64,000 nt of DNA from Candidatus Melainabacteria bacterium. GTDB lineage: Bacteria > Cyanobacteriota > Vampirovibrionia > Obscuribacterales > Obscuribacteraceae. The stretch spans positions 124,001 to 188,000 of the forward strand of contig JAFKGK010000005.1 of the NCBI GenBank assembly GCA_017307165.1, in the 5' to 3' direction. The notes beneath the pieces are model-generated. The model searched no databases. It had not been told where the DNA came from and saw nothing but the letters and a program-made list of their open reading frames with translations. Each line of letters starts with the position of its first letter. Position 1 is the first letter of the stretch. Made by a program: the position numbers and the translations under genes. Below are positions 9,879-43,983 of the stretch, one piece after another.

Positions 9879-9976
9879 TATCAGGCTCTTGTTAAATCAG
9901 GCCCTTGCAAATAAAATCAGGCTCTTGCAATAAAATCAGGCTCTTGTAAATAAAATCAGGCTCTTGCAAATAAAAA
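9879..9976. repeat. Five-copy short tandem repeat that includes a gene's last codons and stop
   Basis: Unit about 19-20 bp, core ATCAGGCTCTTGCAAATAAA, with copies beginning at 9880, 9896, 9916, 9935 and 9955 (core TCAGG at 9881, 9897, 9917, 9936, 9956). The first copy is shorter and others carry single changes. Read on the minus strand, the unit is the end of the 57-residue membrane protein gene (codons for LFARA plus TGA), so the gene end has been copied downstream four times, probably by replication slippage. Confidence 0.85.
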
Positions 9977-10129
9977 AGAACTGGCACTCAAGGCTAGAAG
10001 AATCAAGAATAAGTACACCCAGCGCATGCGAGCGCGTGCTTGAGCCTCGTACATGGCTGCGTCGTATTTGACTGACTCGAGAGTTTCTGCCAGGTCTATT
10101 TTGCTATTGGCTTGAGTTTTGACGACCAT
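9956..10129 (-). CDS. Small C-terminally anchored membrane protein
   Basis: 57 residues from the ATG at 10129; a longer frame to 10201 would place its start on top of the promoter at 10183-10207, so it is rejected. The first 33 residues are charged and helical (SKIDLAETLESVKYDAAMYEAQARARMR), then one membrane helix (WVYLFLILLALSASSFLF) and ARA at the end, the layout of a tail-anchored protein. GGAG lies about 10 bases upstream. The last codons and the stop are part of a tandem repeat. Promoter of the GGAAC-GTC type 54 bases upstream suggests stress control. Function unknown. Confidence 0.65.
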   Translation of the reverse strand: MVVKTQANSKIDLAETLESVKYDAAMYEAQARARMRWVYLFLILLALSASSFLFARA

Positions 10130-10182: not shown

Positions 10183-10207
10183 GACGCAGGCCATGGATCA
10201 TGGTTCC
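10183..10207 (-). promoter_or_regulatory. GGAACC-N16-GTC promoter (site 1)
   Basis: On the minus strand GGAAC (10207-10203) is followed after exactly 17 bases by GTC (10185-10183), 54 bases before the small membrane protein gene. Pattern resembles ECF-type sigma-factor promoters (GGAAC about 17 bases from a GTC/GTT -10). It is back-to-back with site 2. Confidence 0.7.
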
Positions 10208-10239
10208 CGATGTTTTTAATCAAGTCGCTGTTCGTCAGT

Positions 10240-10264
10240 GGAACCGATAGCAGCCTGCACAGTC
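10240..10264 (+). promoter_or_regulatory. GGAACC-N16-GTC promoter (site 2)
   Basis: GGAAC at 10240-10244 and GTC at 10262-10264, 17 bases apart, 51 bases before the ATG at 10315. The two -35 boxes of sites 1 and 2 are 32 bases apart, facing away from each other. Confidence 0.7.
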
Positions 10265-10314
10265 ACATTTTGCAGAATAAATTGCCAATGGATTTTCCAA
10301 AGAGAGGATCGATC

Positions 10315-10593
10315 ATGAATACTAAGAAAATCACCGCCGGCGCCCTGCTCTTGATGGGCTGTCTCGCTGCGATTCCTGCAGCCAATGCAGACATGCATGA
10401 TGCTATCAAAGAAGAAAGGCACGCTCGCGAAGAGATGCACGACGCCTATAAAGCTGATCGCGATGCTTACAAGCATCGATTGAGAGGAGACCATTTTAGA
10501 GCTCGGCTCAACGAAAAGCATGCAAGACACGAGCGTGAGAGAGCTTATAAGCATGCTCGCGAAGCTGCACGTGAAAGAGCAGACTGGGATTAG
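10315..10593 (+). CDS. Small secreted His/Arg-rich protein
   Basis: 92 residues from the ATG at 10315 (GAGG 6 bases upstream); a longer frame upstream would run through the promoter. Signal peptide at residues 1-25 with cleavage likely after ANA; an L-L-M-G-C at residues 12-16 also leaves a lipoprotein possible. The mature part is almost all charged helix with repeated E-R-H-A-R and Y-K-H motifs (EERHAREEMHDAYKADRDAYKH, shown in pieces: about residues 32-50 and 74-86), rich in His, Arg, Asp and Glu. It might bind metal or anions, but this is inference. Followed by a strong terminator. Confidence 0.7.
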   Translation: MNTKKITAGALLLMGCLAAIPAANADMHDAIKEERHAREEMHDAYKADRDAYKHRLRGDHFRARLNEKHARHERERAYKHAREAARERADWD

Positions 10594-10632
10594 ACCGCAT
10601 GGTTCGAGGCAACTCTAGTATGTGAGTCCTAT

Positions 10633-10665
10633 AAAAAAAGAGGGCTTGAGCCCTCTTTTTTTTTT
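10633..10665. terminator. Strong bidirectional intrinsic terminator
   Basis: A-tract, then perfect stem AGAGGGC/GCCCTCT with TTGA loop, then ten or so T. It lies between convergent genes (10593 plus, 10685 minus) and has T-runs on both strands. Confidence 0.93.
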
Positions 10666-10684
10666 GACCTTTTTACTTAGAAGA

Positions 10685-11116
10685 CTAGCTGAGAGCTTTT
10701 TCTTCTAATTGAGTCTGGATATTTTTCATATCGGCTTCCGGAGCGCTATCGAGCAAGGCTGGATAAAAAGACTCTTTGCAAAACTCGAGAAAACGATCGA
10801 CTTTAGAGCCCATCGATTGCAAGACTTGAGCAAAACCTGGTTCGTCGACGTGGATCATGATCAGACTATCGATATCTTGTTTGATCGCTTTGATCTGAGC
10901 TACAAATTCATTTCTGGCGGCATCTAGATTTTCGCTATCGGCAAGATTGTTAGAGATGATCTTTTGCTTGTTAAAGTGCTCGTCGAGAGAAGCAAGTGCT
11001 TTTTTTGTCTGTTCGAAAATACGGTCTTGAGGCCATTCTGAAAGGTTGGCTATGGTTTCGTTGAGCATTCCCTGGATGTGTTCCAGGTCTTCTGTCAAAT
11101 ATCTAAAAATTTTCAT
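10685..11116 (-). CDS. Helical protein resembling hemerythrin HHE fold, ligands mostly absent
   Basis: 143 residues; the ATG at 11116 follows GGAGG, whereas the GTG at 11137 would put that site inside the coding region. The protein is predicted all-helical. LASLDEHFNKQKIISNNL (about residues 42-60) and VDRFLEFCKESFYPALL (about 107-123) sit where hemerythrin-like HHE domains have H-F-x-x-E-E-x-x-x-x-P blocks, but most His and Glu iron ligands are replaced. It may be a metal-free relative or another four-helix protein. Promoter site 3 lies only 25 bases upstream, placing it in the GGAAC-GTC stress set. Confidence 0.5.
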   Translation of the reverse strand: MKIFRYLTEDLEHIQGMLNETIANLSEWPQDRIFEQTKKALASLDEHFNKQKIISNNLADSENLDAARNEFVAQIKAIKQDIDSLIMIHVDEPGFAQVLQSMGSKVDRFLEFCKESFYPALLDSAPEADMKNIQTQLEEKALS

Positions 11117-11140
11117 GGTTGCAAATCCTCCGCGCACAGA

Positions 11141-11165
11141 GACTCAAAGCCATCTGTTAAGTTCC
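11141..11165 (-). promoter_or_regulatory. GGAACT-N16-GTC promoter (site 3)
   Basis: Minus-strand GGAAC (11165-11161) and GTC (11143-11141), 17 bases apart, 25 bases upstream of the ATG at 11116. It forms a divergent pair with site 4; together the two -35 boxes look like an inverted repeat AAGTTCC/GGAACTT. Confidence 0.7.
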
Positions 11166-11182
11166 CTGGCGGCGTTCTTTCA

Positions 11183-11207
11183 GGAACTTTGACGGTTTAG
11201 CTCCGAC
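11183..11207 (+). promoter_or_regulatory. GGAACT-N16-GAC promoter, imperfect (site 4)
   Basis: GGAAC at 11183-11187 followed after 17 bases by GAC instead of GTC, 36 bases before the oxidoreductase gene. The -35 box is exact and the spacing identical; only the middle base of the -10 triplet differs. Confidence 0.5.
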
Positions 11208-11242
11208 AATTCAAAAATGAATTTGTAAGGCGGAGAATATCA

Positions 11243-12382
11243 ATGAGTCGAAAGGTGAGATATGCTGTCATGGGACTGGGCCATTTGACTCAGACTGCGA
11301 TTTTGCCGGCATTTGCCAATGCCAGCAAAAACTCCGTCCTTACTGCCTTGATCGGCCACTCTGGTAAGAGGCACGTGGTGGATGAGCTGGGCAAATACTA
11401 TGGTTTAGATCATCTTTACACTGATGACGAAATTGACAGGGCATTTCGCGAGGATACTTTTGATGCACTATATATAGTGCTGCCCAATCATCTGCACAAA
11501 AAATACTGCATCATGGCTGCTGAGTGTGGCATACATGTGCTATGCGAAAAGCCACTGGGTCTCGACCAGGAAGAATGCCTGCAGATGATCGCCGCTTGTG
11601 AGCGTAACAAGGTCAAGTTAATGACGGCCTACAGACTGCATTTTGAAGCCACCAATATGCAAGTCGTGCATGATATTGGTCTAGGCAAGATTGGTACGCC
11701 GCGATTGTTTACTGCCAATCTCAGTCAGATGTTGGTGGAGGGCAATTATCGCGGTGATCGCACACGTGGCGGCGGCCCCTTGCTCGATATTGGTATTTAC
11801 TGCATCAATGCAGCGCGCTACATTTTTAAATCCGAACCTAAGATGGTGACGGCATTGGCAGTGTCTGCTGAAGCGACAGAGCCCAGAGTAGCGTCAAATG
11901 CAGAGTCAAATATTGACCAATCAGTAGCAGCGGTAATGGAGTTTGACGGTGGTGGGCTAGCGACTTTCAACACCAGTTTTGGTGCAAGTCGCGAAAACTG
12001 GTATCAAGTAGTCGGGACCGAAGGCTCGATCAAGGTGGACCCAGCCTTTGATTATGCTTGCCAACTTAGTAGCACTCTCAAAATGAATAATGGTGATGTC
12101 AAAACCACCAATACGCCTTTGCAAGATCATTTTGCACCGGAGCTCATTCATTTTTCTGATTGCATCATCAACGATACCAGGCCCGGTCCGGATGGCCACG
12201 AGGGGCTTGCTGATGCGATTATTATCGATGCTATCAATGAGTCTCTGCGTACCCGCAAGGCGGTGCGCTTGCCGGAGATTGTGTCAGTGACGCCGGATCC
12301 AGGACCTGATTTGGTGATTCAAAGGCCTGCTCCAGATACCGATCAAATCCCTGTGATCGATATCAAGGCCGGTTCTACATAG
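11243..12382 (+). CDS. Gfo/Idh/MocA family NAD(P)-dependent oxidoreductase
   Basis: 379 residues. N-terminal Rossmann fold with VMGLGHLTQTAILPAF (G-x-G-x-x-x-x-x-x-x-P, about residues 9-24), the family motif CEKPLG (about residues 97-102, where Lys is catalytic) and a C-terminal alpha/beta substrate domain with GGGPLLDIGIYCINAARY. The tail after residue 345 is Pro/Asp-rich. Family members oxidise or reduce sugars, polyols or related carbonyls; the substrate is not predictable. It is followed after 12 bases by a ferritin-like gene, likely one operon from promoter site 4, so a stress-linked role is inferred. Confidence 0.9.
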   Translation: MSRKVRYAVMGLGHLTQTAILPAFANASKNSVLTALIGHSGKRHVVDELGKYYGLDHLYTDDEIDRAFREDTFDALYIVLPNHLHKKYCIMAAECGIHVLCEKPLGLDQEECLQMIAACERNKVKLMTAYRLHFEATNMQVVHDIGLGKIGTPRLFTANLSQMLVEGNYRGDRTRGGGPLLDIGIYCINAARYIFKSEPKMVTALAVSAEATEPRVASNAESNIDQSVAAVMEFDGGGLATFNTSFGASRENWYQVVGTEGSIKVDPAFDYACQLSSTLKMNNGDVKTTNTPLQDHFAPELIHFSDCIINDTRPGPDGHEGLADAIIIDAINESLRTRKAVRLPEIVSVTPDPGPDLVIQRPAPDTDQIPVIDIKAGST

Positions 12383-12394
12383 AGAGGTGATGCC

Positions 12395-12859
12395 ATGACT
12401 GATTCAAATTTTTCTAAGACCAAAATCATCCATCAGCTGAATAGGTTTGTCGCTAATGAGCTTTCTGCTGCTGATGTCTACACGTGCGCAATTGATAATA
12501 TTTTTCATGCAGATGTGAGAGAAAAACTCGAAATGGTGCATGATCAGCACTTGGAGCGTGCAAAGCTCTTGCAGATGAGGATCCTGGATTTGGGAGGGAT
12601 GCCGCGATCCAAGGGGGATTACGCCCTTCCAAACTATCAACTCTATCAGCTATTGGAAGCCTCAAATTGTGCACCGGGTGAAAAAGTAGTATTGATGGCA
12701 TTAGAAGATGAGGAGGCCAAATCATTGGAGGATTATCGACACATCTCATGCATCCTCGATGAGGCCTCGGCTAATCTCATCCTTACGGACTTATTGCCGG
12801 GCCAGACCAAGATAAGAAAATCGATGAAAACTCTGCGTCAGTCTTTAGATGCGCTTTAG
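12395..12859 (+). CDS. Ferritin-like helical bundle protein (DUF2383/PA2169-like)
   Basis: 154 residues. The four-helix pattern includes NRFVANELSAADVYTCAI (helix 1 with Glu), MVHDQHLERAKLLQMRILDLGGMP (helix 2, quoted as its HDQHLERA core, about residues 48-55) and ALEDEEAKSLEDYRH (helix 3-4, about residues 107-121). The H-x-x-H-x-E-R followed by I-x-x-L-G-G-x-P is typical of DUF2383-type ferritin-like proteins found with stress genes in proteobacteria. Whether all di-iron ligands are present is uncertain. Its stop codon overlaps that of the convergent downstream gene (TAG and TAA share bases 12857-12858). Confidence 0.7.
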   Translation: MTDSNFSKTKIIHQLNRFVANELSAADVYTCAIDNIFHADVREKLEMVHDQHLERAKLLQMRILDLGGMPRSKGDYALPNYQLYQLLEASNCAPGEKVVLMALEDEEAKSLEDYRHISCILDEASANLILTDLLPGQTKIRKSMKTLRQSLDAL

Positions 12860-13443
12860 GCTGCGTCGCTGACCTGCAGTGTCTGTCCGGCTCCGGCCAG
12901 GCGGCAGATTTTTTCTACTGCATGGATGCTGTCATCAGGATCGACCAGCACGGTGACTATCAAGTTGGTCTCGACCATAGTGTTGAGATTAGATCTCAGG
13001 GGCGAGGCGTCCAAAGTTGGTAATGCTGACTTGGTCTTGAAAGTAATAACATTGTTTGAGTTTGCGCGCTCAGGAGTAAATTGGCCTTGTGTTGCGCTTG
13101 TATCGATAGATGATCTTGCGCCAGCTATCGATGCTCCGATGATGGCGCCGATGGTCCCACAGAGAGTCGCGCCACAAATGGCTCCGGTGGCCAGGAGTAG
13201 CCAATCGCTCACGCCATGCATATTGCTTGCACCGCTCATCGCTGCTCCAAGCAATGCGCCCATGTAGATGCTGGCCTTGGTAGCGTAAAATGATTCGTCG
13301 TCTTTGGCATCATCATGCGAAAGATCAAATCTACTCAGGACAACATCGCTCTCGTTGTAAGTGAAACCCCTTTCTCTAAGCTGTGAGAGCGCATTCTCGA
13401 GCTGATCGTTATGGCAGAATGTACAGATCACTCGATGCTTCAT
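12856..13443 (-). CDS. Glycine-zipper membrane stress-type protein
   Basis: 195 residues from the ATG at 13443. An N-terminal region (KHRVICTFCHNDQLENALSQLRERGF, about residues 1-30) looks like the ferredoxin-like start of general stress proteins that carry glycine zippers. A central Gly/Ala-rich segment (about 60-110) has GALLGAAMSGAS and GTIGAIIGASIAGA, able to pack in membranes, and a second alpha/beta region ends the protein (LIVTVLVDPDDSIHAVEKI). The start could also be the ATG at 13461; a TTG at 13473 is excluded because it nearly touches the promoter -10. Promoter site 5 drives it. Confidence 0.6.
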   Translation of the reverse strand: MKHRVICTFCHNDQLENALSQLRERGFTYNESDVVLSRFDLSHDDAKDDESFYATKASIYMGALLGAAMSGASNMHGVSDWLLLATGAICGATLCGTIGAIIGASIAGARSSIDTSATQGQFTPERANSNNVITFKTKSALPTLDASPLRSNLNTMVETNLIVTVLVDPDDSIHAVEKICRLAGAGQTLQVSDAA

Positions 13444-13480
13444 TGCTAGAGCCCCGCTCATTGTATATAGCAAAAATAAA

Positions 13481-13505
13481 GACCTAATTAAGTCGGGGTA
13501 GTTCC
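13481..13505 (-). promoter_or_regulatory. GGAACT-N16-GTC promoter (site 5)
   Basis: Minus-strand GGAAC (13505-13501) and GTC (13483-13481), 17 bases apart, 38 bases before the ATG at 13443. It is back-to-back with site 6, 64 bases away. Confidence 0.7.
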
Positions 13506-13569
13506 TGAGACTTATCGGAGATGATTTGGCGGCTGGTTTAAAAGAAAATTGAAATATTTGAAATATTTG

Positions 13570-13594
13570 GGAACTTCCGTTTACCTGGTTGGTC
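13570..13594 (+). promoter_or_regulatory. GGAACT-N16-GTC promoter (site 6)
   Basis: GGAAC at 13570-13574 and GTC at 13592-13594, 17 bases apart, 32 bases before the ATG at 13626. Confidence 0.7.
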
Positions 13595-13625
13595 TGGCCG
13601 CAATGAGTAATAGAGGTACAGTACT

Positions 13626-14009
13626 ATGAGCATTCGAATAAAGCTTTCGAGAGTGGCATTTATGGCTGTATCCCTTTTAGTTTCGATTGAGGGAGTCGCA
13701 CCGGCTGTGTTTGCAGCAATTAGACCGGAAGTCCAGCCCTCGCCTTATGATGGGGCGCCCAGCCAACCCAGGCAGATAGTGCCGGTGCCGATGCCGCCTG
13801 ATGTCGTGCCCGATCGTGCCAATCCAGTTAATCCGGCTCCTTCGCAAATAGTGCCTCAGCCTGGTGTGCCTGGCAATCCGCGTCAACCGGAGCCTTCTCC
13901 ATGGCCCAATCCACATACGCCGGTGCCGGATCCCAATCCAAATCCGCCCTCAACACCTAAAATACCGGATCCAACTCCTTTACCCTGGTCTGAGCCACGT
14001 CCTCTTTGA
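13626..14009 (+). CDS. Secreted proline-rich protein
   Basis: 127 residues. Signal peptide at about residues 1-31 (cleavage after VFAA), then about 95 residues with roughly one third proline and many Pro-Asn, Pro-Val and Pro-Asp pairs (PNPHTPVPDPNPNPPSTP). No folded domain is evident; such tails often span or bind the cell wall or stay extended outside the cell. It has its own GGAAC-GTC promoter (site 6) and a terminator-like hairpin 40 bases after the stop. Function unknown. Confidence 0.7.
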   Translation: MSIRIKLSRVAFMAVSLLVSIEGVAPAVFAAIRPEVQPSPYDGAPSQPRQIVPVPMPPDVVPDRANPVNPAPSQIVPQPGVPGNPRQPEPSPWPNPHTPVPDPNPNPPSTPKIPDPTPLPWSEPRPL

Positions 14010-14048
14010 TTTTGTCTCTTATTTAGTTTCGGATTTGAGTTTTCCAAA

Positions 14049-14068
14049 GCCCCGCCCTTAGGCGGGGT
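14049..14068 (+). terminator. Intrinsic terminator after the proline-rich gene
   Basis: Stem CCCCGCC/GGCGGGG with a short CTTA loop, followed by TTTGCGTTTATTT. The T-run is interrupted, so strength is moderate. It also ends close to the stop of the minus-strand gene at 14075. Confidence 0.75.
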
Positions 14069-14074
14069 TTGCGT

Positions 14075-14911
14075 TTATTTCGAAGCTATCGCCTTGGTCC
14101 AGATCTCCAGGTGTTCAGGGCTCATATTGCCCATTGGCTCGGCACGTGCATCCGCAAAATGCCAGGCGCCTATATCTACAAGGTACTGCTCCCTCGACAA
14201 GAGAGTCCCTCGGCAGACGTCTTCCTGATCGCCTGGCTTTTGCTTGGCCACCACCGACTTATCAGTCTCGGACCTGGCTCTCGTCAAAAGATAGTTCATC
14301 ACTTGTGGTGGAATGCGATTTACTTCGTTGGGATAAATGTAGTTGAAGAGAATAAGATGTGCTAGCAAGACCGGCCAATGCTCGCCAAACCTCGAGATCA
14401 GATGCTGCCAATCCATCTTATCTGCCATCGAGAGCAAGAGGTGAGCGATGTCGCCACCATCATATCTTTCGCGCTCCATGATAAATGCCTTGGACCATAT
14501 GATCTCCTCCGGCGGCACCAATTTTACAGGCAAGCCAAAGACCACGCAGTCTACTGCATTGTCAAACCAGTAATCATCCACTGGGACCAGACCGTTGCCA
14601 GAGTTGAAAATGATATCGATAAACTTTTTCTGCTTGGGATCTAGATCTAGATAAGCCTTGCCCAACCAGTGCGGAAAGGTCAACTCAGTATGATAGCCAG
14701 ACTCTTTCAAAGCATCTAACACTGAAGCGCAGTCTTGTTTTCTCACAAAGAGATCGAGGTCGCGAGTGTGCCTGTAGATGCCTGCATAATTGGCCAAAGC
14801 GTAGGCCCCTCCTAACAAATAAGGTATGCCGGCCTGGTTGAGAGTTTTGAGTGTATTGATGTAAAACTCTTTGGTTTCTTCATCCAATTGGGGATTGAGT
14901 TCTATGTCCAT
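14075..14911 (-). CDS. Nucleotidyltransferase-fold protein
   Basis: 278 residues. The N-terminal domain carries the signature of the DNA polymerase beta-like nucleotidyltransferase fold: LLGGAYALANYAG (about residues 32-44) followed by R-H-T-R-D-L-D-L-F-V (about 48-57), which supplies the G-G/S and D-x-D metal-binding residues. A third acidic residue may be KFIDIIF (about 95-101). The C-terminal half is helical (HLISRFGEHWPVLLAHLILF). Related proteins modify antibiotics, RNA or other proteins by transferring nucleotides. It is divergent from the metallophosphoesterase gene and not obviously paired with a HEPN antitoxin partner. Confidence 0.75.
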   Translation of the reverse strand: MDIELNPQLDEETKEFYINTLKTLNQAGIPYLLGGAYALANYAGIYRHTRDLDLFVRKQDCASVLDALKESGYHTELTFPHWLGKAYLDLDPKQKKFIDIIFNSGNGLVPVDDYWFDNAVDCVVFGLPVKLVPPEEIIWSKAFIMERERYDGGDIAHLLLSMADKMDWQHLISRFGEHWPVLLAHLILFNYIYPNEVNRIPPQVMNYLLTRARSETDKSVVAKQKPGDQEDVCRGTLLSREQYLVDIGAWHFADARAEPMGNMSPEHLEIWTKAIASK

Positions 14912-15027
14912 AATCTTGATACTCGATTGATCTACATAAACTGCGGAAACTAATCATTTCGATCTCCGTCGTGACAGCCAAGATGGGATAAGTCGTTTTA
15001 GGTTCCCTCAAGATTGGACTTAATGGG

Positions 15028-15831
15028 ATGGATACAAAAAGCACGGTAAAAATTGCAGCGGTTGGCGACTTGCATTGCACAAGACAGTCGACCGGCATAT
15101 ACCAAAAGATTTTTGCCAGGGTCAACGAAGATGCCGATATCCTCGTTCTATGCGGCGATTTGACCGACTACGGGACAGCCGAAGAAGCTCAAGTCCTGAT
15201 AAGAGAACTCAATAGCGTCGTGAGAATACCCATAGTGTGCGTCTTGGGCAACCATGATTATGAGTCTGGTACGCCAGAAACAGTCAAGCAGATACTCACC
15301 GAGGGTGGTGTCAAGGTGCTCGACGGCGAGACCTGCGAGTTTTATGGTGTAGGCTTTGCCGGTGCCAAAGGATACATCGGTGGCTTTGGCCGTTATAGTC
15401 TCGGTGCCTGGGGTGAGGAAGGCATCAAAAATATAGTGAAAGATGCACAATCCGAAGTCATGAAAGTTGAATCAGCTCTGGCACGACTGCGTACCACGCA
15501 CAAAGTGGTGCTCTTACATTACTCTCCCATACGCGCTACTGTCGAAGGGGAGCCTGTGGAGATTTTTCCATTTTTAGGCAATAGCCGCCTCGAAGAGCCC
15601 CTCTTGCGCCATCATGCCTCCGTGGTGTTTCACGGCCATGCACATAGAGGTACGTTAGAAGGTGCTTTGATGTCTGGCCGTCCCGTCTACAATGTGGCTT
15701 TGCCGCTTTTGCAATCTTGCATGCCGGATAAGCCTGCTTATCGTATTTTTGACTTAGCCGTGTCGGACGAGAGTACCCCTATTGTTGGAGAAGAGATAGA
15801 TGCGCTACATGGCTCTAGCCTGCGACTATGA
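15028..15831 (+). CDS. Calcineurin-like metallophosphoesterase
   Basis: 267 residues with the full set of metallophosphoesterase motifs: GDLHC (residues 12-16), GDLTDYG (about 39), GNHDYESG (about 75), LLHYSP (about 167) and GHAHRG (about 207). These residues bind two metal ions for phosphoester hydrolysis. No signal peptide, so cytoplasmic. The last 32 bases overlap the start of the following HAD-ATPase gene, indicating translational coupling. The natural substrate is unknown; together with the HAD phosphatase domain next door it suggests a phosphate-ester process. Confidence 0.9.
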   Translation: MDTKSTVKIAAVGDLHCTRQSTGIYQKIFARVNEDADILVLCGDLTDYGTAEEAQVLIRELNSVVRIPIVCVLGNHDYESGTPETVKQILTEGGVKVLDGETCEFYGVGFAGAKGYIGGFGRYSLGAWGEEGIKNIVKDAQSEVMKVESALARLRTTHKVVLLHYSPIRATVEGEPVEIFPFLGNSRLEEPLLRHHASVVFHGHAHRGTLEGALMSGRPVYNVALPLLQSCMPDKPAYRIFDLAVSDESTPIVGEEIDALHGSSLRL

Positions 15832-17518
15832 CGGTACGATAGCTCAAGGCGGGGTGGTAGCGCCGAGTACGATCGAGGCTCTCGAACGTCTACAGGCCTC
15901 CGGTCGACAATTGATCTTAGTATCAGGACGGCAAGTAGTCCATCTGGAAGCGGTGTTTGACCGTCTTGATTTGTTCAGTATCGTAGTCGCAGAAAATGGT
16001 GCAGTCCTCTACAAGCCCGCTACAAAACAACTGAGGCTTTTGGCTCCTGAGCCTGACATCAGGCTGGTTGCAAGACTCAGCGAGATGGGTGTGGCACCGC
16101 TGGTGGTGGGCAAGGTTGTGATCGACACTATGCAGCCTAACGAGGTCAATGTCATCAAGGCCATTGGCGAGCTTGGACTCGAAAACCAGATTATTTTTAA
16201 TAAGGGAGCAGTCATGGTCTTGCCTCCAGGTATCAATAAGGCATCTGGTCTGACCGAGGCCCTCAAAGAGCTTGGTCTTTCGCCACACAATGTTGTGGCC
16301 GTCGGTGATGCCGAGAATGATCATGCTTTTCTCGATTTATGCGAGTGCGCTGTCGCTGTCGAGAATGCCCTGCCTGCCCTTAAAGAAAAAGCGAACTTTG
16401 TCACCAAATCACCACGCGGAGCTGGATGCGAAGAGCTCATCGCCGAGTTGTTGGCAGACGATCTCAAATCTCGCGAAGACGCCATCACCAATCGTGGTAT
16501 CACAATCGGCGCTACTCCGGATGGCCGAGTCGCTCAATTTACTCCTTATGGACATGGGTTGATGATTGCCGGACCGTCGGGTAGTGGCAAGTCGACCACC
16601 TGTCTGGGCATTGTCGAACGCATAGAAAAGGCTCGCTATCAGTATTGTCTTATCGATCCCGAAGGCGATTTTAGCTCCATGGACAAGGCCGTGATCGTTG
16701 GCAGTATCGATAATAAGGCAGAGGTGGATGCCGTCATCAAGGCTTTGCGCGGTCAGGCCAATGTAGTGGTCAATCTGCTGGCTATTCCTCTTGCCGATCG
16801 CCCTCTCTTTTTTGCTGATTTGCTCGGTCGCATCCAATCGCTCCGCGCCGAGACCGGGAGGCCCCATTGGATTATAGTAGATGAGGCGCACCACATGCTT
16901 TATCCAGAATGGAAAGCATCCGCTCACAATATCCCAGTCGAATGGCGTGAATTTATCGCACTTACCGTGCATCCCGATATGGTGGCGCAGATTGTTCGTG
17001 ACAAGATCGATTCGATCATTGCGGTCGGTAAAAATCCTCTTGAGACGCTCAAGTCATTTGATCCGGATATCCAATTGCCCAATGTCGAAAAAAATCGGAT
17101 AGATAATGAGCGCAAAGATAACCAGGTAGTTGTTTGGACTCGTTCGCAACCTGACCAGGTGTTTATAGTCACACCCGAACCCGGCACCACGGAGCGAAGG
17201 AGACACATACGCAAATACGCCGAGGGTGATGTACGCGAAGGATGCTTTTATTTTCGCGGCCCGCGCAATCAGCTCAACCTCAAAGCACAAAATCTTTCTA
17301 TCTTCTCGCAAATGGCTGAGGGCATCGATGAGGAGACGTGGCTCTACCATCTCAAGCGCCGTGATTACTCAGACTGGTTTAGACGCATCATCAAGGATGA
17401 TGAGTTGACCACACTAGCAGAAAAGCTCGAAATAGATCCTGCTATCTCAGCAAAAGACAGCCGTGAGCAGATCCTCTCTGCCATTAGCCGCCTATACACA
17501 GCTCCTGCAAATCACTGA
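15800..17518 (+). CDS. HAD-IIB phosphatase fused to a HerA/DUF87-like ATPase
   Basis: 572 residues. Residues 1-225 form a Cof-type HAD phosphatase: DYDGT (Asp9, Asp11), LVSGR, then INKASGLTEAL and GDAENDHAFL. Residues 240-400 form a P-loop ATPase: Walker A GPSGSGKST at about 258-266, IDPEGDF and Walker B WIIVDEAHH at about 356-364, as in HerA/VirB4-type motor ATPases. A further 170 residues of mixed fold follow. Related fusions are known in sequence databases from memory, but their job is not established. GGAGAAG precedes the ATG; it overlaps the metallophosphoesterase gene by 32 bases. Confidence 0.88.
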   Translation: MRYMALACDYDGTIAQGGVVAPSTIEALERLQASGRQLILVSGRQVVHLEAVFDRLDLFSIVVAENGAVLYKPATKQLRLLAPEPDIRLVARLSEMGVAPLVVGKVVIDTMQPNEVNVIKAIGELGLENQIIFNKGAVMVLPPGINKASGLTEALKELGLSPHNVVAVGDAENDHAFLDLCECAVAVENALPALKEKANFVTKSPRGAGCEELIAELLADDLKSREDAITNRGITIGATPDGRVAQFTPYGHGLMIAGPSGSGKSTTCLGIVERIEKARYQYCLIDPEGDFSSMDKAVIVGSIDNKAEVDAVIKALRGQANVVVNLLAIPLADRPLFFADLLGRIQSLRAETGRPHWIIVDEAHHMLYPEWKASAHNIPVEWREFIALTVHPDMVAQIVRDKIDSIIAVGKNPLETLKSFDPDIQLPNVEKNRIDNERKDNQVVVWTRSQPDQVFIVTPEPGTTERRRHIRKYAEGDVREGCFYFRGPRNQLNLKAQNLSIFSQMAEGIDEETWLYHLKRRDYSDWFRRIIKDDELTTLAEKLEIDPAISAKDSREQILSAISRLYTAPANH

Positions 17519-17528
17519 TATTGCGACT

Positions 17529-17557
17529 AAAAAGCACCGCCGCGGCGGTGCTTTTTA
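17529..17557. terminator. Bidirectional intrinsic terminator
   Basis: Perfect GC-rich stem AAAGCACCGCC/GGCGGTGCTTT around a GC pair, with A-run before and T-run after. It ends the HAD-ATPase transcript and the minus-strand csbD-like gene. Confidence 0.92.
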
Positions 17558-17586
17558 TATCTGCAATTATTTAGCAAACCGAGATA

Positions 17587-17793
17587 CTAGTTGAGATCAC
17601 AAGACTTGCAAAACTCATCCATTTCTTTTTGGACTTGTTCTTTTGCATAGCCATAGCGCTCTTGCAATTTGCCGGCGATTTGATCGCGTTTGCCATCGAG
17701 CACGGCCATATCATCATCTGTGAGCTTGCCCCATTTTTCTTTGACTTTGCCCTTCATTTGATTCCAATTGCCTTCTACTTGAGTCCAGTTCAT
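17587..17793 (-). CDS. CsbD family stress protein
   Basis: 68 residues, the usual CsbD length. Family signature VEGNWNQMKGKVKEKWGKLTDDD at the start (quoted core: GNWNQMKGKVKEKWG, residues 8-22), then DGKRDQIAGKLQERYGYAKEQ. It ends in a Cys-x-x-Cys-like FCKSC not typical of the family. CsbD-like proteins are small, abundant, poorly understood and belong to general stress regulons (for example sigma-B in Bacillus). Here the gene has promoter site 7, 42 bases upstream, tying it to the other island genes. Confidence 0.9.
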   Translation of the reverse strand: MNWTQVEGNWNQMKGKVKEKWGKLTDDDMAVLDGKRDQIAGKLQERYGYAKEQVQKEMDEFCKSCDLN

Positions 17794-17834
17794 TGTTTAC
17801 GCTCCTTGTGTCTACGCTTCTGCGCACCCCCTGT

Positions 17835-17859
17835 GACATGCAATAGACTGATTGGTTCC
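17835..17859 (-). promoter_or_regulatory. GGAACC-N16-GTC promoter (site 7)
   Basis: Minus-strand GGAAC (17859-17855) and GTC (17837-17835), 17 bases apart, 42 bases before the csbD-like start. Confidence 0.72.
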
Positions 17860-37030: not shown

Positions 37031-38263
37031 TTAGGAAGTTTTGCTGTTGCGTGCTTCTCTATCTTTGCGTTGGGAGCCTTTGAGAGGTGGCAGGATATTT
37101 TCGAGAGACAGGCCAAAAAGCGCAGCGCCATATGATTCTGCACCTCTATCCATGACCGATTTTTGTATGATTGGCTGGATCAGAGCTGCATTATTGTTTG
37201 TTTTTTTGAGGAGCTGCCTAGTGGTCAGATCTGCTCTCGGTAAGAAAGATCCGTGATTATCCGGCAGATAACCTGCGAGGATCAGCCTGCTTGGACCAAT
37301 AATATTGATCAGGCTGGCCAGCCCATAGGCCACGCCGTCGGCGGCCAGATCGAGCAGATCGATTGCAATAGGGTCTTTTTTACTAGCCAAGATAACCAAC
37401 TCATCCAGGGTTTCAACTGCAAGACCGGCTTTTCGAGCGTTGCTTAAGAGCATCGGCTCTCCCGCCAGTTCATTGATTGAGACACCGCTCATGTCGGATG
37501 GTTCCCACAGCCTGGCTAGTGTTGCGTTTTGCATTGGGAAAATTAATTCACCTAGGTTGCCGCCCATTTGAGAAAACTGGTTGAGAAAGGCGTTATTTTG
37601 GAGAAAAGTCACGCGTAGATTGTGGCCGATCCGAACGAAGGCCAATAGCTCGTCCTCGCATTCTGCTTGCTCAGCATGCGTTTCGGCTAAGGCGGCCATC
37701 TCGATATTGGTAGCCAAGGCCAGTTTACGACCAAAGTGACCCTCGAGCATGGTGACGAGCGGAGCAAAGCGGTCAGGGGCAGCCTTATTTTGACGATCGC
37801 TTCCTGTGATGTGCAAAGGTCCAGGGAGTGCCAGAGTAATGGCATAGATGCGCCTGAAGTCCGAGTGCGTACGCAAAATCTGCTCGAGCAGCTTGATTAT
37901 GGCTGCTTGTCCATCCAGGTCTATAGCCTTGTAAACCACCTGCTGGCTGGCCAATTGCCGGCCGTTCAAATCGCATAGGGATATTTGGGCTCGATTGTCC
38001 TCTATCGATATGCCGATCGAAGTCTTGCTATTGGGCTTAAAATTGAGCCCAATTGGCTTACGTCCCCTCAGGCTCGTTTTTGATCCTGATTCTTCGAGGA
38101 TCTTGAGGCCGATCAATTCGTCGACGATGCTGGATACAGTGGCCCTTGCCAGATCGACCTCACGGGAGAGGTCCGCTCTAGACACGCCTGGCTTACGCCT
38201 GACCACGTCCAGGATCATTTGCGCGTTGCGACGCCTCATTTCTACAAAGCTTGGACTGGTCAT
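37031..38263 (-). CDS. ROK-family transcriptional regulator with degenerate sensor domain
   Basis: 410 residues. N-terminal winged helix (about residues 8-70) with MRRRNAQMILDVVRRKPGVSRADLSREVDLARATVSSIVDELI, cited as LSREVDLARATVSSIVDEL. The remaining ROK domain has kinase-like glycine patterns, but the family zinc motif C-x-C-G-x-x-G-C and the conserved His before it are absent (here GGNLGELIFPM). It is therefore a regulator that may not bind zinc or phosphorylate sugars. It heads the minus-strand operon and is divergent from otsA; the palindrome at 38331-38349 is its likely operator. GAGAAG precedes the ATG. Confidence 0.88.
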   Translation of the reverse strand: MTSPSFVEMRRRNAQMILDVVRRKPGVSRADLSREVDLARATVSSIVDELIGLKILEESGSKTSLRGRKPIGLNFKPNSKTSIGISIEDNRAQISLCDLNGRQLASQQVVYKAIDLDGQAAIIKLLEQILRTHSDFRRIYAITLALPGPLHITGSDRQNKAAPDRFAPLVTMLEGHFGRKLALATNIEMAALAETHAEQAECEDELLAFVRIGHNLRVTFLQNNAFLNQFSQMGGNLGELIFPMQNATLARLWEPSDMSGVSINELAGEPMLLSNARKAGLAVETLDELVILASKKDPIAIDLLDLAADGVAYGLASLINIIGPSRLILAGYLPDNHGSFLPRADLTTRQLLKKTNNNAALIQPIIQKSVMDRGAESYGAALFGLSLENILPPLKGSQRKDREARNSKTS

Positions 38264-38496: not shown

Positions 38497-39882
38497 ATGC
38501 ACTTAGTCACGTACCGCGGGCCTTCAATGGCTGGCGGTGTATCCGGCGCTTTTTCTTCTTTATGGCAAAATTTTGCGCAAGCGCAGGATTTTAATGCCTG
38601 GACCTACCTCGTCGATGATGAGGTAGTAGAGATGAGAAAGGCTGATGACGCCAAGGCTTTACTTGGTTGCATACCGGCCGAGATCCTGGACGGACATTAC
38701 CGATTTTGCAATCTGTTTATCTGGCCGGTCATGCATGATATGGGCCAGAGGGCGCATTATGCGGCTTCGGATCGTACGGCTTTTCGATCTTTCAATCGGC
38801 TTATCGCCGATTGTCTCTTTCGCAAAGGGTTCAGGAAAAAATTTGCGCAAGAACGCGAGATGCAATTTGTGCAAGACTATCAATTAGCCCTATTGCCCGC
38901 TCTAGCCCAGGATTATGGTTTTAACAGCACTCTGTTCTGGCACATACCCTGGCCTAAGGAGGTCCAGACATTGCATGTGCCACCGCTGGTGGAGATAGCT
39001 ACTGCATTGCTCGCCGCTGACACCATAGGCTTTCATACTCAAGAATACGCTCACAACTTTCTGCAATTTGTCGATAAATATATTCCCGAGCGCTCAGTCA
39101 ATCTTCGCTCAGGCAAGTGGAGATCATTTCCCGCTGTGGTGGCCAGGCCTTTGGGCATCGATAATAGCGGCTGGCAAAATGCTGCGATCAGTGGCGGCAA
39201 CTTTATGCATCCGGCGCTAGAGCATGTCAAAGGCAAAAAGATCGTGCTATCTGTAGATCGAGCTGACTATACAAAAGGCGTTTCCGAGCGTATGCAGATG
39301 ATATCGACTTTTGCGGAGCGATATCCCGATCTTTCACAAAATGTCGTTTTCGTGCAGATCTGTACACGCACACGTGCTGGTTTGCCGGCCTTTGACGATT
39401 ATTGGGAGCGACTCGAGTTTAGGGAGCAACAGCTTGCAACTCGCAAAAACGATCTTCTGGTGTGGTTGAAAGATCCCATCGATCCTGCTCAATTAGCTTT
39501 ATTGTATAAGCGCGCTGACGCCATGCTGGTTACGCCCCTGCGAGACGGGCTCAATCTCACCGCAAAAGAATTTGTCCTGTCGCAGGCACCGCATGCGATG
39601 ACTCTGCAAGGCAAGGCCCCCGCTCCGCTTTTGCTCAGTCCAGGTGCTGGCGTCTTTAACGAACTCGGTCGTTACAGCATCGCCGTGGATCCCATTGATG
39701 ATATCGATATGGCTGATTCTGTTGCTTACGCCCTGGGTATGGATGATCGCGAAAAGACCAATAGGCATCACCGTTGCGTTGCAGCTATGAGCAAGCATAC
39801 CTTGACCGATTGGTGGAATTATTTTGCAGCCATAAATAATTTTAGGAACCGTGACATCAGGCCCTCGTCTGTGTCTACATGA
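38497..39882 (+). CDS. otsA: Trehalose-6-phosphate synthase
   Basis: 461 residues of the GT20 family. It transfers glucose from a nucleotide-sugar to glucose-6-phosphate. Seen: N-terminal glycine loop RGPSMAGGVSGAFSSLW, then DYQLALLPALAQ, HIPWP, IGFHTQEYAHNFL, the phosphate/nucleotide site VLSVDRADYTKGVSERM, VFVQICTRTRAG and the C-terminal DGLNLTAKEFVLSQ. Length matches bacterial OtsA. AGGAG lies 7 bases before the ATG. It ends in ATGA overlap with the mscS-like gene, so trehalose synthesis and the channel are made together. otsB lies on the opposite strand. Confidence 0.94.
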   Translation: MHLVTYRGPSMAGGVSGAFSSLWQNFAQAQDFNAWTYLVDDEVVEMRKADDAKALLGCIPAEILDGHYRFCNLFIWPVMHDMGQRAHYAASDRTAFRSFNRLIADCLFRKGFRKKFAQEREMQFVQDYQLALLPALAQDYGFNSTLFWHIPWPKEVQTLHVPPLVEIATALLAADTIGFHTQEYAHNFLQFVDKYIPERSVNLRSGKWRSFPAVVARPLGIDNSGWQNAAISGGNFMHPALEHVKGKKIVLSVDRADYTKGVSERMQMISTFAERYPDLSQNVVFVQICTRTRAGLPAFDDYWERLEFREQQLATRKNDLLVWLKDPIDPAQLALLYKRADAMLVTPLRDGLNLTAKEFVLSQAPHAMTLQGKAPAPLLLSPGAGVFNELGRYSIAVDPIDDIDMADSVAYALGMDDREKTNRHHRCVAAMSKHTLTDWWNYFAAINNFRNRDIRPSSVST

Positions 39883-41051
39883 ATCCCGCACAACGCAACC
39901 TGCTTCAAGAATTTTTTGATATCTGGAATTATCCTCTTTTGGCTCTTCGCGAAGACTCGCTGACCATTGGGGGACTGGTCCTGCTTCTAGTGCTTGGATA
40001 TTTGCTGTTCCGCTATGGTCCCAAGTGCAACAGTCATCTTTTGCGTTTCATTCAGGGTAAGGTGGTCATTCCGGCAGAGTATCGTAAGGGTATAGTGCGG
40101 GTGACGCGCGCCCTTGTCTTTATCGCCGGTGCTTGTTTGATCGTCAAGATAGCAAAAATCGATCATTTTATTTTTGGTCAGATCAACGAGCTTTACGACA
40201 CCGTGCATGGGATGTTTGATCTGAAGCTCTTCAAATTTGGCAAGACCGATATCACGCTCTGGGCTTTGACCTATCTAATGGTATCATCCCTGGTGCTGGT
40301 TCGTGGTGCCTCTGCATTCAGGCACTGGCTCGGCGTGAGGGTGCTAGCACGCACCAAGATGCAAGCTCAGGCTCAATACGCAGTTGGTGCCAGTGCTCAG
40401 TATGTCGTTTTGTTTTTGGGCTTTGTCGTCTTGCTGCAGAGTGCAGGTATAGATCTCAGCGCTATCACCGTGATGGTCGGTGCGCTCGGTATCGGTTTGT
40501 CTTTTGGCTTGCAACAGATCACAAACAATTTCATCTGTGGCCTCATTCTGCTATTTGAAAGGCCAATTCGCATAGGCGACAAGGTGCAGGTATCCGATGT
40601 CGTCGGCACGGTACAAAATATTTCTCTCAGGGCCACTACTATCATCACCGGCAAAAACATTGCCGTGCTGGTGCCCAATGCCGAGTTTATCACTGCCAAG
40701 GTCCAAAACTGGACCCTCAATAGTAATTATATTGCCGTCAATCTGCCATTTAACGTAGACAGCACGCGCGATCCGCAGGCCATCGCCGATGATATCAAGG
40801 CCTGTGTCGCCGAGCATCCTGGAGTCAGCCGGGAGGCCGAAACCAGGGTCTTGTTCGAGGAAATCTCAGGGAGCAAGTGCAAGTTTAATGTGATCGTCAA
40901 TACCGAAAAGTATATAAATGACCCCGATCAATTGCGCTCGGATCTATTGCTTGCCTTGACCAGGAGATTTAAAAAGCCTGAGAATAAAAATAAGCCCAGC
41001 AATATAGTTATCCCCTTTGCAGCCAGCATTGAGTCTCCGACTTCACTCTAA
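39879..41051 (+). CDS. MscS-family mechanosensitive channel
   Basis: 390 residues. About five hydrophobic segments in the first 230 residues: LTIGGLVLLLVLGYLLF, ALVFIAGACLIVKIA, LWALTYLMVSSLVLVRG, ASAQYVVLFLGFVVLLQSAG, and the pore helix SAITVMVGALGIGLSFGLQQITNNFICGLILLF with the Gly/Ala-packed pattern of MscS. The cytoplasmic beta domain follows (RIGDKVQVSDVVGTVQNISLRATTI, PNAEFI). The channel relieves turgor on hypo-osmotic shock. It overlaps otsA by 4 bases, so the operon pairs osmolyte synthesis with its release valve. Confidence 0.93.
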   Translation: MNPAQRNLLQEFFDIWNYPLLALREDSLTIGGLVLLLVLGYLLFRYGPKCNSHLLRFIQGKVVIPAEYRKGIVRVTRALVFIAGACLIVKIAKIDHFIFGQINELYDTVHGMFDLKLFKFGKTDITLWALTYLMVSSLVLVRGASAFRHWLGVRVLARTKMQAQAQYAVGASAQYVVLFLGFVVLLQSAGIDLSAITVMVGALGIGLSFGLQQITNNFICGLILLFERPIRIGDKVQVSDVVGTVQNISLRATTIITGKNIAVLVPNAEFITAKVQNWTLNSNYIAVNLPFNVDSTRDPQAIADDIKACVAEHPGVSREAETRVLFEEISGSKCKFNVIVNTEKYINDPDQLRSDLLLALTRRFKKPENKNKPSNIVIPFAASIESPTSL

Positions 41052-43129: not shown

Positions 43130-43154
43130 GGAACCGAGCTTTCCTCGATTCGTC
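43130..43154 (+). promoter_or_regulatory. GGAACC-N16-GTC promoter (site 8)
   Basis: GGAAC at 43130-43134 and GTC at 43152-43154, 17 bases apart, 65 bases before the ATG at 43219. This is the only member of the set outside the 10-18 kb island. Confidence 0.7.
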
Positions 43155-43218: not shown

Positions 43219-43983
43219 ATGCGACTAAATCTCGCCATGGCCTCAATTGCAGTGGTCGGCATACTTAGCACCACCTGCGGTATCCTCGCTCAACCAGCTC
43301 AGGCTCTGGGGCTTGAGGACATTTTGAGAGGGACACTCAAAATCAATCCAGGCAATAGTGCAGAGCAAAATATCATCCGCACCAATTTTGATACCAGACG
43401 TTCGCAGCTCGAAGCTCAGATCCAGACTGGCGTAGCCAGTGGGCAGTTGACCCCTCAAGAAGAATCTGAACTGCGTAATGATCTCAATAATATTTCCAAC
43501 ATGCAAAATACCAGCATGATGGATGGCAAATTTGATCAGAACGAGACAAATATGATCGTGCAGGCCTTTACCAATGTCTCAACCAAGATCGAGACCTATC
43601 TGACCAATGCCAATGTCACCGGCACTGCCGTCAATCCCGTTTCCAATCCTTATTGGTATCGTCGTGGTCTCGGCAATGGTCGCAACCGCTGGGTCCAGAA
43701 CGATACTCAATTTAGAGCCGATATCGACGCCAAGCAAGCCCAACTCGAGGCTTCGATCACGCGCGGTACGACATCGGGGCGTCTCAATTGGAACGAAGCG
43801 CAAAGATTGCGCAATCAGCTCAACCAGATCCATGCCGATGAGGCCCGATATCTGGCTGATGGTCGTCTATCCTACAATGATGCCAAGCGCTTAACCGACT
43901 CTCTCGATCGTCTGACCGACGAAGTACAGCGTCAAAAGCGCGACAATCAGCGCGCGGGCAATCGTTATCGCAATCACTGGTAG
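43219..43983 (+). CDS. Secreted helical protein with an internal duplication
   Basis: 254 residues. Signal peptide to about residue 30 (AQPAQALG). Two copies of a helical unit of about 75 residues: residues 52-120 (RSQLEAQIQTGVASGQLTPQEESELRNDL, cited QLEAQIQTGVASGQLTPQEE; MDGKFDQNETNMIVQAF) and 170-245 (QLEASITRGTTSGRLNWNEA; ADGRLSYNDAKRLTDSL). Each contains a G-x-x-S-G-x-L-x-x-x-E turn and a D-G-x-x-x-x-x-E loop resembling calcium-binding loops. A Tyr/Trp/Arg linker joins them. Promoter site 8 places it in the stress set. Function unknown. Confidence 0.7.
   Translation: MRLNLAMASIAVVGILSTTCGILAQPAQALGLEDILRGTLKINPGNSAEQNIIRTNFDTRRSQLEAQIQTGVASGQLTPQEESELRNDLNNISNMQNTSMMDGKFDQNETNMIVQAFTNVSTKIETYLTNANVTGTAVNPVSNPYWYRRGLGNGRNRWVQNDTQFRADIDAKQAQLEASITRGTTSGRLNWNEAQRLRNQLNQIHADEARYLADGRLSYNDAKRLTDSLDRLTDEVQRQKRDNQRAGNRYRNHW

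Follow-up and report, generated by a model that had tools for sequence, protein, structure and literature searches.

The CsbD family takes its name from the SigB system of Bacillus subtilis, whose group 3 sigma factor uses a different promoter from that described here and is controlled by partner switching; the functional class of its targets is alike. In Sphingopyxis and Sphingomonas, the regulons of EcfG (ECF15), an extracytoplasmic function (ECF) sigma factor of Alphaproteobacteria, place csbD, ku, mscS, GSP26 and ferritin-like genes behind GGAAC-N16-CGTT or GGAAC-N17-20-GTT (PMC7083833, PMC6599016). The −35 element of Escherichia coli RpoE is GGAACTT (PMC8103513). Here we describe a predicted promoter, GGAACY-N16-GTC, found in a stretch of 64,000 nucleotides (“the window”) from Candidatus Melainabacteria bacterium of the family Obscuribacteraceae (GCA_017307165.1, contig JAFKGK010000005.1; C27:124001-188000 of our genome G000, an assembly of 4.6 Mb, the other G numbers being relatives’ genomes). 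GGAAC would be its −35 element and GTC the core of its −10 element, held at one fixed spacing and recognised by one ECF sigma factor. We consider it probable that a single ECF sigma factor, which we call sigma-B, reads a general-stress-type regulon from this motif and is itself set by a phosphorelay.

The window contains nine exact copies of GGAACY-N16-GTC, a number never reached in dinucleotide shuffles (mean 0.68); an earlier, sequence-only reading of the window had estimated about one chance match in 64 kb. All seven exact copies listed there are present; two further ones, at 37481-37505 and 39845-39869 in coding sequence, had been overlooked. Across the whole genome there are 85 exact sites. 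When the gap between GGAACY and GTC was allowed to range from N13 to N19, 151 matches were returned: 85 at N16 and 66 at the six remaining spacings together. With N17 counted separately, the other spacings hold about 10 sites each, and the excess at N16 has p = 3e-47. A genome-wide frequency at chance level, the outcome on which the sequence-only reading had staked its proposal, was therefore not observed. That chance or base composition explains the sites is hardly credible: the shuffles and the conservation described below contradict it, and the comparison of N16 with the other spacings refutes it.

The motif tolerates little variation. Variants were counted in 856 kb of sequence selected to contain sites, which biases these counts towards N16-GTC. 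At N16, GGAAC is followed by C or T at 83 sites and by A or G at 8, compared with about 4 of the latter per other spacing, and the exclusion of purines noted earlier for the window holds genome-wide. The variant triplets GTT (2 sites), GAC (6) and ATC (8) each compare with roughly 3-5 per other spacing, and no other triplet or first half at N16 is clearly above its own background, so the motif is nearly invariant. A second class with N17 spacing was dropped, not being clearly enriched in the family, as were the GAC, GTT, ATC and purine variants as additional classes, all of them at or near background. Enrichment is thus restricted to the N16 spacing and to GTC, and about 75 of the 85 sites are real.

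Most of the sites precede genes: of the 83 examined, 53 lie between genes with a start no more than 150 bases downstream (median 46), in sequence of which the gene caller assigned 84% as coding. They are also strongly clustered, with 158 pairs of sites within 10 kb where 15 were expected, seven back-to-back pairs within 150 bases and 47 of the 85 sites confined to four stretches of 115 kb altogether. Among these islands is the cluster in the window; C11:125-170 kb, on another contig, holds the largest. A strict bipartite motif could also be a protein-binding site, and we considered whether a transcription factor binds it ahead of ordinary sigma-70 promoters. Against this, the motif is directional, has a single fixed spacing and stands 25-65 bases before starts, both of its halves are of ECF-promoter character, and no conserved −10-like box lies nearby. 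Because the sites lie before starts, their flanks show no further conserved box and the region has no surplus of sigma-70-like promoters, the position data favour a promoter over a transcription-factor site, and we regard the latter as very unlikely. ECF regulons are also expected to have a bipartite element of this kind, in which a short fixed spacer follows an AAC-type −35 and which recurs before the targets. We infer from its sequence and placement that the motif directs transcription.

The genes downstream include members of many Pfam families: CsbD, Ku, LigD, Fe/Mn superoxide dismutase, NRAMP, BON, MscS, pyridoxamine-oxidase-like (GSP26-type), ferritin-like, DUF2383, patatin, HlyD-type membrane fusion protein, Gfo/Idh and a HAMP-repeat hybrid kinase. 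Many more encode small exported proteins with no family assignment. Judged by family, the targets would protect against several stresses. The pairing of promoter and gene extends to other genera, where 15 of 79 target homologues have an exact site within 200 bases, compared with 5 of 225 non-target homologues (odds ratio 10, Fisher p = 3e-6). Pairs that have been kept include those of Ku (in three genera), CsbD, Gfo/Idh, the HAMP kinase and the glycine-zipper proteins, among others. The earlier proposal of an ECF-type stress regulon is supported by these stress-type genes and their conserved pairing.

As had been noticed, no sigma factor gene lies in the window: 14 genes with a sigma-70 region 2 were found in the genome, all elsewhere. 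One ECF gene, that of sigma-B (C11:159283-159939, minus strand, 218 amino acids), lies inside the largest and densest island. The protein matches Sigma70_r2 and Sigma70_r4_2, and so has regions 2 and 4 only, as in an ECF sigma factor. Its best NCBIfam matches, to RpoE/SigE, are far below the cut-offs, and a homology search with it across genome contigs gave one match only, a distant Bacteroidetes ECF. In a tree with 63 homologues from relatives, which contained no EcfG, sigma-B falls in a clade with support 99/99, a SigG/RpoE-like clade (“A”) has support 97/91 and the other clades are separate. Lineage expansions were also seen: G013 has four related ECFs of another clade (L105-L107, L109) and G022 has four sigma-B paralogs (L097, L103, L108, L128).

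In other genera, too, the motif is found around the sigma-B gene. Around 14 sigma-B genes there are 24 N16 sites where 2.1 were expected (p = 9e-18), compared with 2 (0.9 expected) near nine A paralogs and 3 (1.9 expected) near the other clades. The five genomes with the highest N16 excess (G000, G022, G011, G004 and G006) all have sigma-B, and its gene adjoins those of Ku and CsbD in G005 and that of CsbD in G006 and G011. The sigma-4 recognition helix of sigma-B resembles those of AlgU/RpoE-type sigmas. Sigma-B is most likely the sigma factor that reads GGAACY-N16-GTC, a role we assign from this linkage.

Genes near sigma-B point to a possible input. In G011 and G004, genes for a giant HAMP-repeat hybrid kinase, a REC-HPt protein and sigma-B follow one another in this order on one strand, and in G008 and G022 the REC-HPt gene is a close neighbour of sigma-B (the HPt match in the Pfam call of this protein is just below the curated cut-off). 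These neighbourhoods suggest phosphorelay control of sigma-B, in which the giant hybrid histidine kinase would signal to the REC-HPt protein and the latter would set sigma-B activity. Feedback of the regulon on its signalling genes is likely, because in G000 both the kinase gene and the gene preceding that of REC-HPt carry the predicted promoter. Between the kinase and REC-HPt genes lies a gene for a protein of 63-69 amino acids (G000 C11:147151-147342; G011 L094:7490-7699), with its own GGAACY-N16-GTC promoter and the C-terminal end RCENGVC(A/S)LNW(K/E)P. It was dropped as a NepR-like anti-sigma factor serving as a general component, being found only in two sister genomes.

Several observations weigh against sigma-B as the reader of the motif, or against the regulon as drawn. 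Three genomes with sigma-B (G009, G020, G023) have no N16 excess and two with an excess (G013, G018) have no detected sigma-B; across genomes the match between sigma-B and N16 is imperfect (Mann-Whitney p = 0.04 for the excess and 0.08 for the ratio). The motif was not found in the region upstream of sigma-B, which gives no sign of autoregulation, and autoregulation was dropped from the scheme. In G000 itself the REC-HPt gene is 11 kb from sigma-B, and 64 of the 79 target homologues in relatives are without an exact site. Paralog A has a similar recognition helix, which therefore does not separate the two sigma factors.

Another ECF sigma factor might read the motif, the candidates being the SigG/RpoE-like paralog A (C11:580 kb) and an ECF encoded on C33. 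Paralog A, with its similar −35 recognition helix, is found in nearly all relatives, and the excess in G018 and G013 speaks for an ECF other than sigma-B. However, paralog A is also present in many genomes without N16 excess (G001, G016, G010, G012), its neighbourhoods are not enriched in sites and it has an anti-sigma operon of its own. We think it unlikely that paralog A or the C33 factor is the reader. Paralog A is of the same type as RpoE/AlgU and cyanobacterial SigG, with an adjacent zinc-finger anti-sigma gene in an arrangement like that of sigG-sapG (PMC2758279). Sigma-B differs from these in having no recognised anti-sigma gene beside it and in lying among signalling genes and stress islands; what it shares with E. 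coli RpoE is the −35, GGAAC here and GGAACTT there (PMC8103513). A PLSDB search with paralog A gave top matches that were all below 40% identity and mostly RpoE. Its anti-sigma protein (L093:10657-11586; G000 C11, ~580.7 kb) apparently has three tandem zinc-finger anti-sigma repeats followed by one membrane helix; a small exported protein is encoded after it, and the layout is the same in G011.

The closest described counterpart of the sigma-B regulon is that of EcfG. Both have GGAAC as −35, followed after 17 bases by the −10 triplet, regulon size is similar (~75 sites here, 79 units in Sphingopyxis; PMC7083833), two-component signalling provides the input there and probably does so here, and csbD, ku, mscS, GSP26 and ferritin-like genes are shared targets. 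On the strength of the same −35, nearly equal spacing and overlapping targets (PMC7083833, PMC6599016), the system could be the EcfG/PhyR/NepR response of Alphaproteobacteria gained by transfer. The two differ, however: the −10 is (C)GTT there and GTC here, C or T is required after GGAAC here, and the place of NepR and PhyR would be taken by REC-HPt and a giant HAMP kinase, in another bacterial class. NepR had no matches in the genome, while a Caulobacter control was positive; no PhyR domain combination (sigma-like plus receiver) scored above the cut-off, with only sub-threshold matches to ordinary ECFs; and GTT as −10 is at background level at every spacing. Sigma-B also groups with homologues of its own bacterial family, albeit in a tree containing no EcfG. 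Transfer of EcfG is thus highly improbable. Since NepR is absent, PhyR is not found above the cut-off and GTT is unused, the system resembles the alphaproteobacterial general stress response and is not a member of it.

In the window, the predicted promoters stand before mostly small genes. Genes were called with a simple codon-usage script, and individual start positions may be wrong: for the sites at 13481-13505 and 13570-13594 we used ATG 13443 and the start at 13626, as the script put the first start elsewhere and missed the second gene. With these starts, the seven listed sites each point at a downstream gene, with 53, 50, 24, 37, 31, 41 and 64 bases between GTC and the start codon, all plausible distances. 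The first two are back-to-back: 10183-10207 (minus strand) lies 53 bases before the gene of a 57-aa membrane protein (9956-10129), and 10240-10264 (plus) lies 50 bases before that of a 92-aa exported charged protein without a Pfam family (10315-10593, plus). The site at 11141-11165 (minus) is 24 bases before 11116, the start of a gene for a 143-aa protein (10685-11116, minus), also without a Pfam family and kept with its promoter in relatives, as in the G006 orthologue. A second back-to-back pair consists of 13481-13505 (minus), 37 bases before the likely ATG of a glycine-zipper protein gene (12856-13443, minus; C11:160315 and the genera G006 and G011 have related proteins with the same promoter), and 13570-13594 (plus), 31 bases before the gene of a 127-aa exported proline-rich protein (13626-14009, plus). 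The site at 17835-17859 (minus) precedes csbD (17587-17793, minus; PF05532, E = 5e-22) by 41 bases and is kept before csbD in G003. The last, at 43130-43154 (plus), is 64 bases before the gene of a 254-aa exported protein (43219-43983, plus).

An eighth site, with GAC in place of GTC, does exist at 11183-11207 (plus), but the GAC class to which it belongs is not clearly enriched (6 sites at N16, about 3 per other spacing). It precedes the gene of a Gfo/Idh/MocA oxidoreductase (Pfam; 11243-12382, plus), a possible target, and may be a degenerate functional copy, because a Gfo/Idh homologue at C29:72967 has a canonical GTC site. Downstream of the oxidoreductase gene lies that of a DUF2383 protein with a ferritin-like fold (12395-12859, plus): the CsbD and glycine-zipper assignments of the sequence-only reading were correct, and its “ferritin-like” gene is this one. 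Of the two additional exact sites, 37481-37505 (minus), inside a ROK-family gene, is probably a chance match. The other, 39845-39869 (plus), overlaps the end of a GT20 (trehalose-phosphate-synthase-like) gene and is 9 bases before the gene of an MscS-type channel (39879-41051); it may be genuine if the transcript is leaderless or MscS starts at a later codon.

GT20 (trehalose-phosphate synthase-like) or phosphatase-like genes repeatedly adjoin sites (window 38497-39882, C11:138693-140018, L097:11761 and L094:1165). Trehalose genes likewise occur in EcfG regulons. Elsewhere in the window, a single gene of 572 amino acids (15800-17518) fuses a HAD-type phosphatase with a HerA/DUF87-like ATPase domain.

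In the scheme proposed here, sigma-B would turn on ~75 sites, with an output of DNA-end joining, superoxide removal, iron and manganese handling, osmotic channels, small envelope and glycine-zipper proteins and CsbD, and the signalling genes, being under the same promoter, would receive feedback. Because a strict promoter precedes stress-protection genes and clusters around the gene of its likely matching sigma factor, a general stress response akin to that of Alphaproteobacteria, and yet distinct from it, is probably at work in this uncultivated lineage. A literature search returned no description of such a regulon, nor of stress control in this bacterial family. We give about even chances to its being a convergent second design, in a deep non-photosynthetic lineage outside Alphaproteobacteria: an orphan ECF sigma factor, a strict GGAACY-N16-GTC promoter and a HAMP hybrid kinase acting through REC-HPt, neither NepR nor PhyR having been found. 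The analysis yields, for an uncultivated bacterial family, a regulon, a promoter rule of near-zero tolerance, and a candidate sigma factor and signalling pathway, a prediction made testable with purified proteins. ECF-driven general stress responses would, on this reading, have arisen more than once, with the −35 in common and targets that overlap, and so sharp a motif can be used to link dozens of small, uncharacterised proteins to stress.

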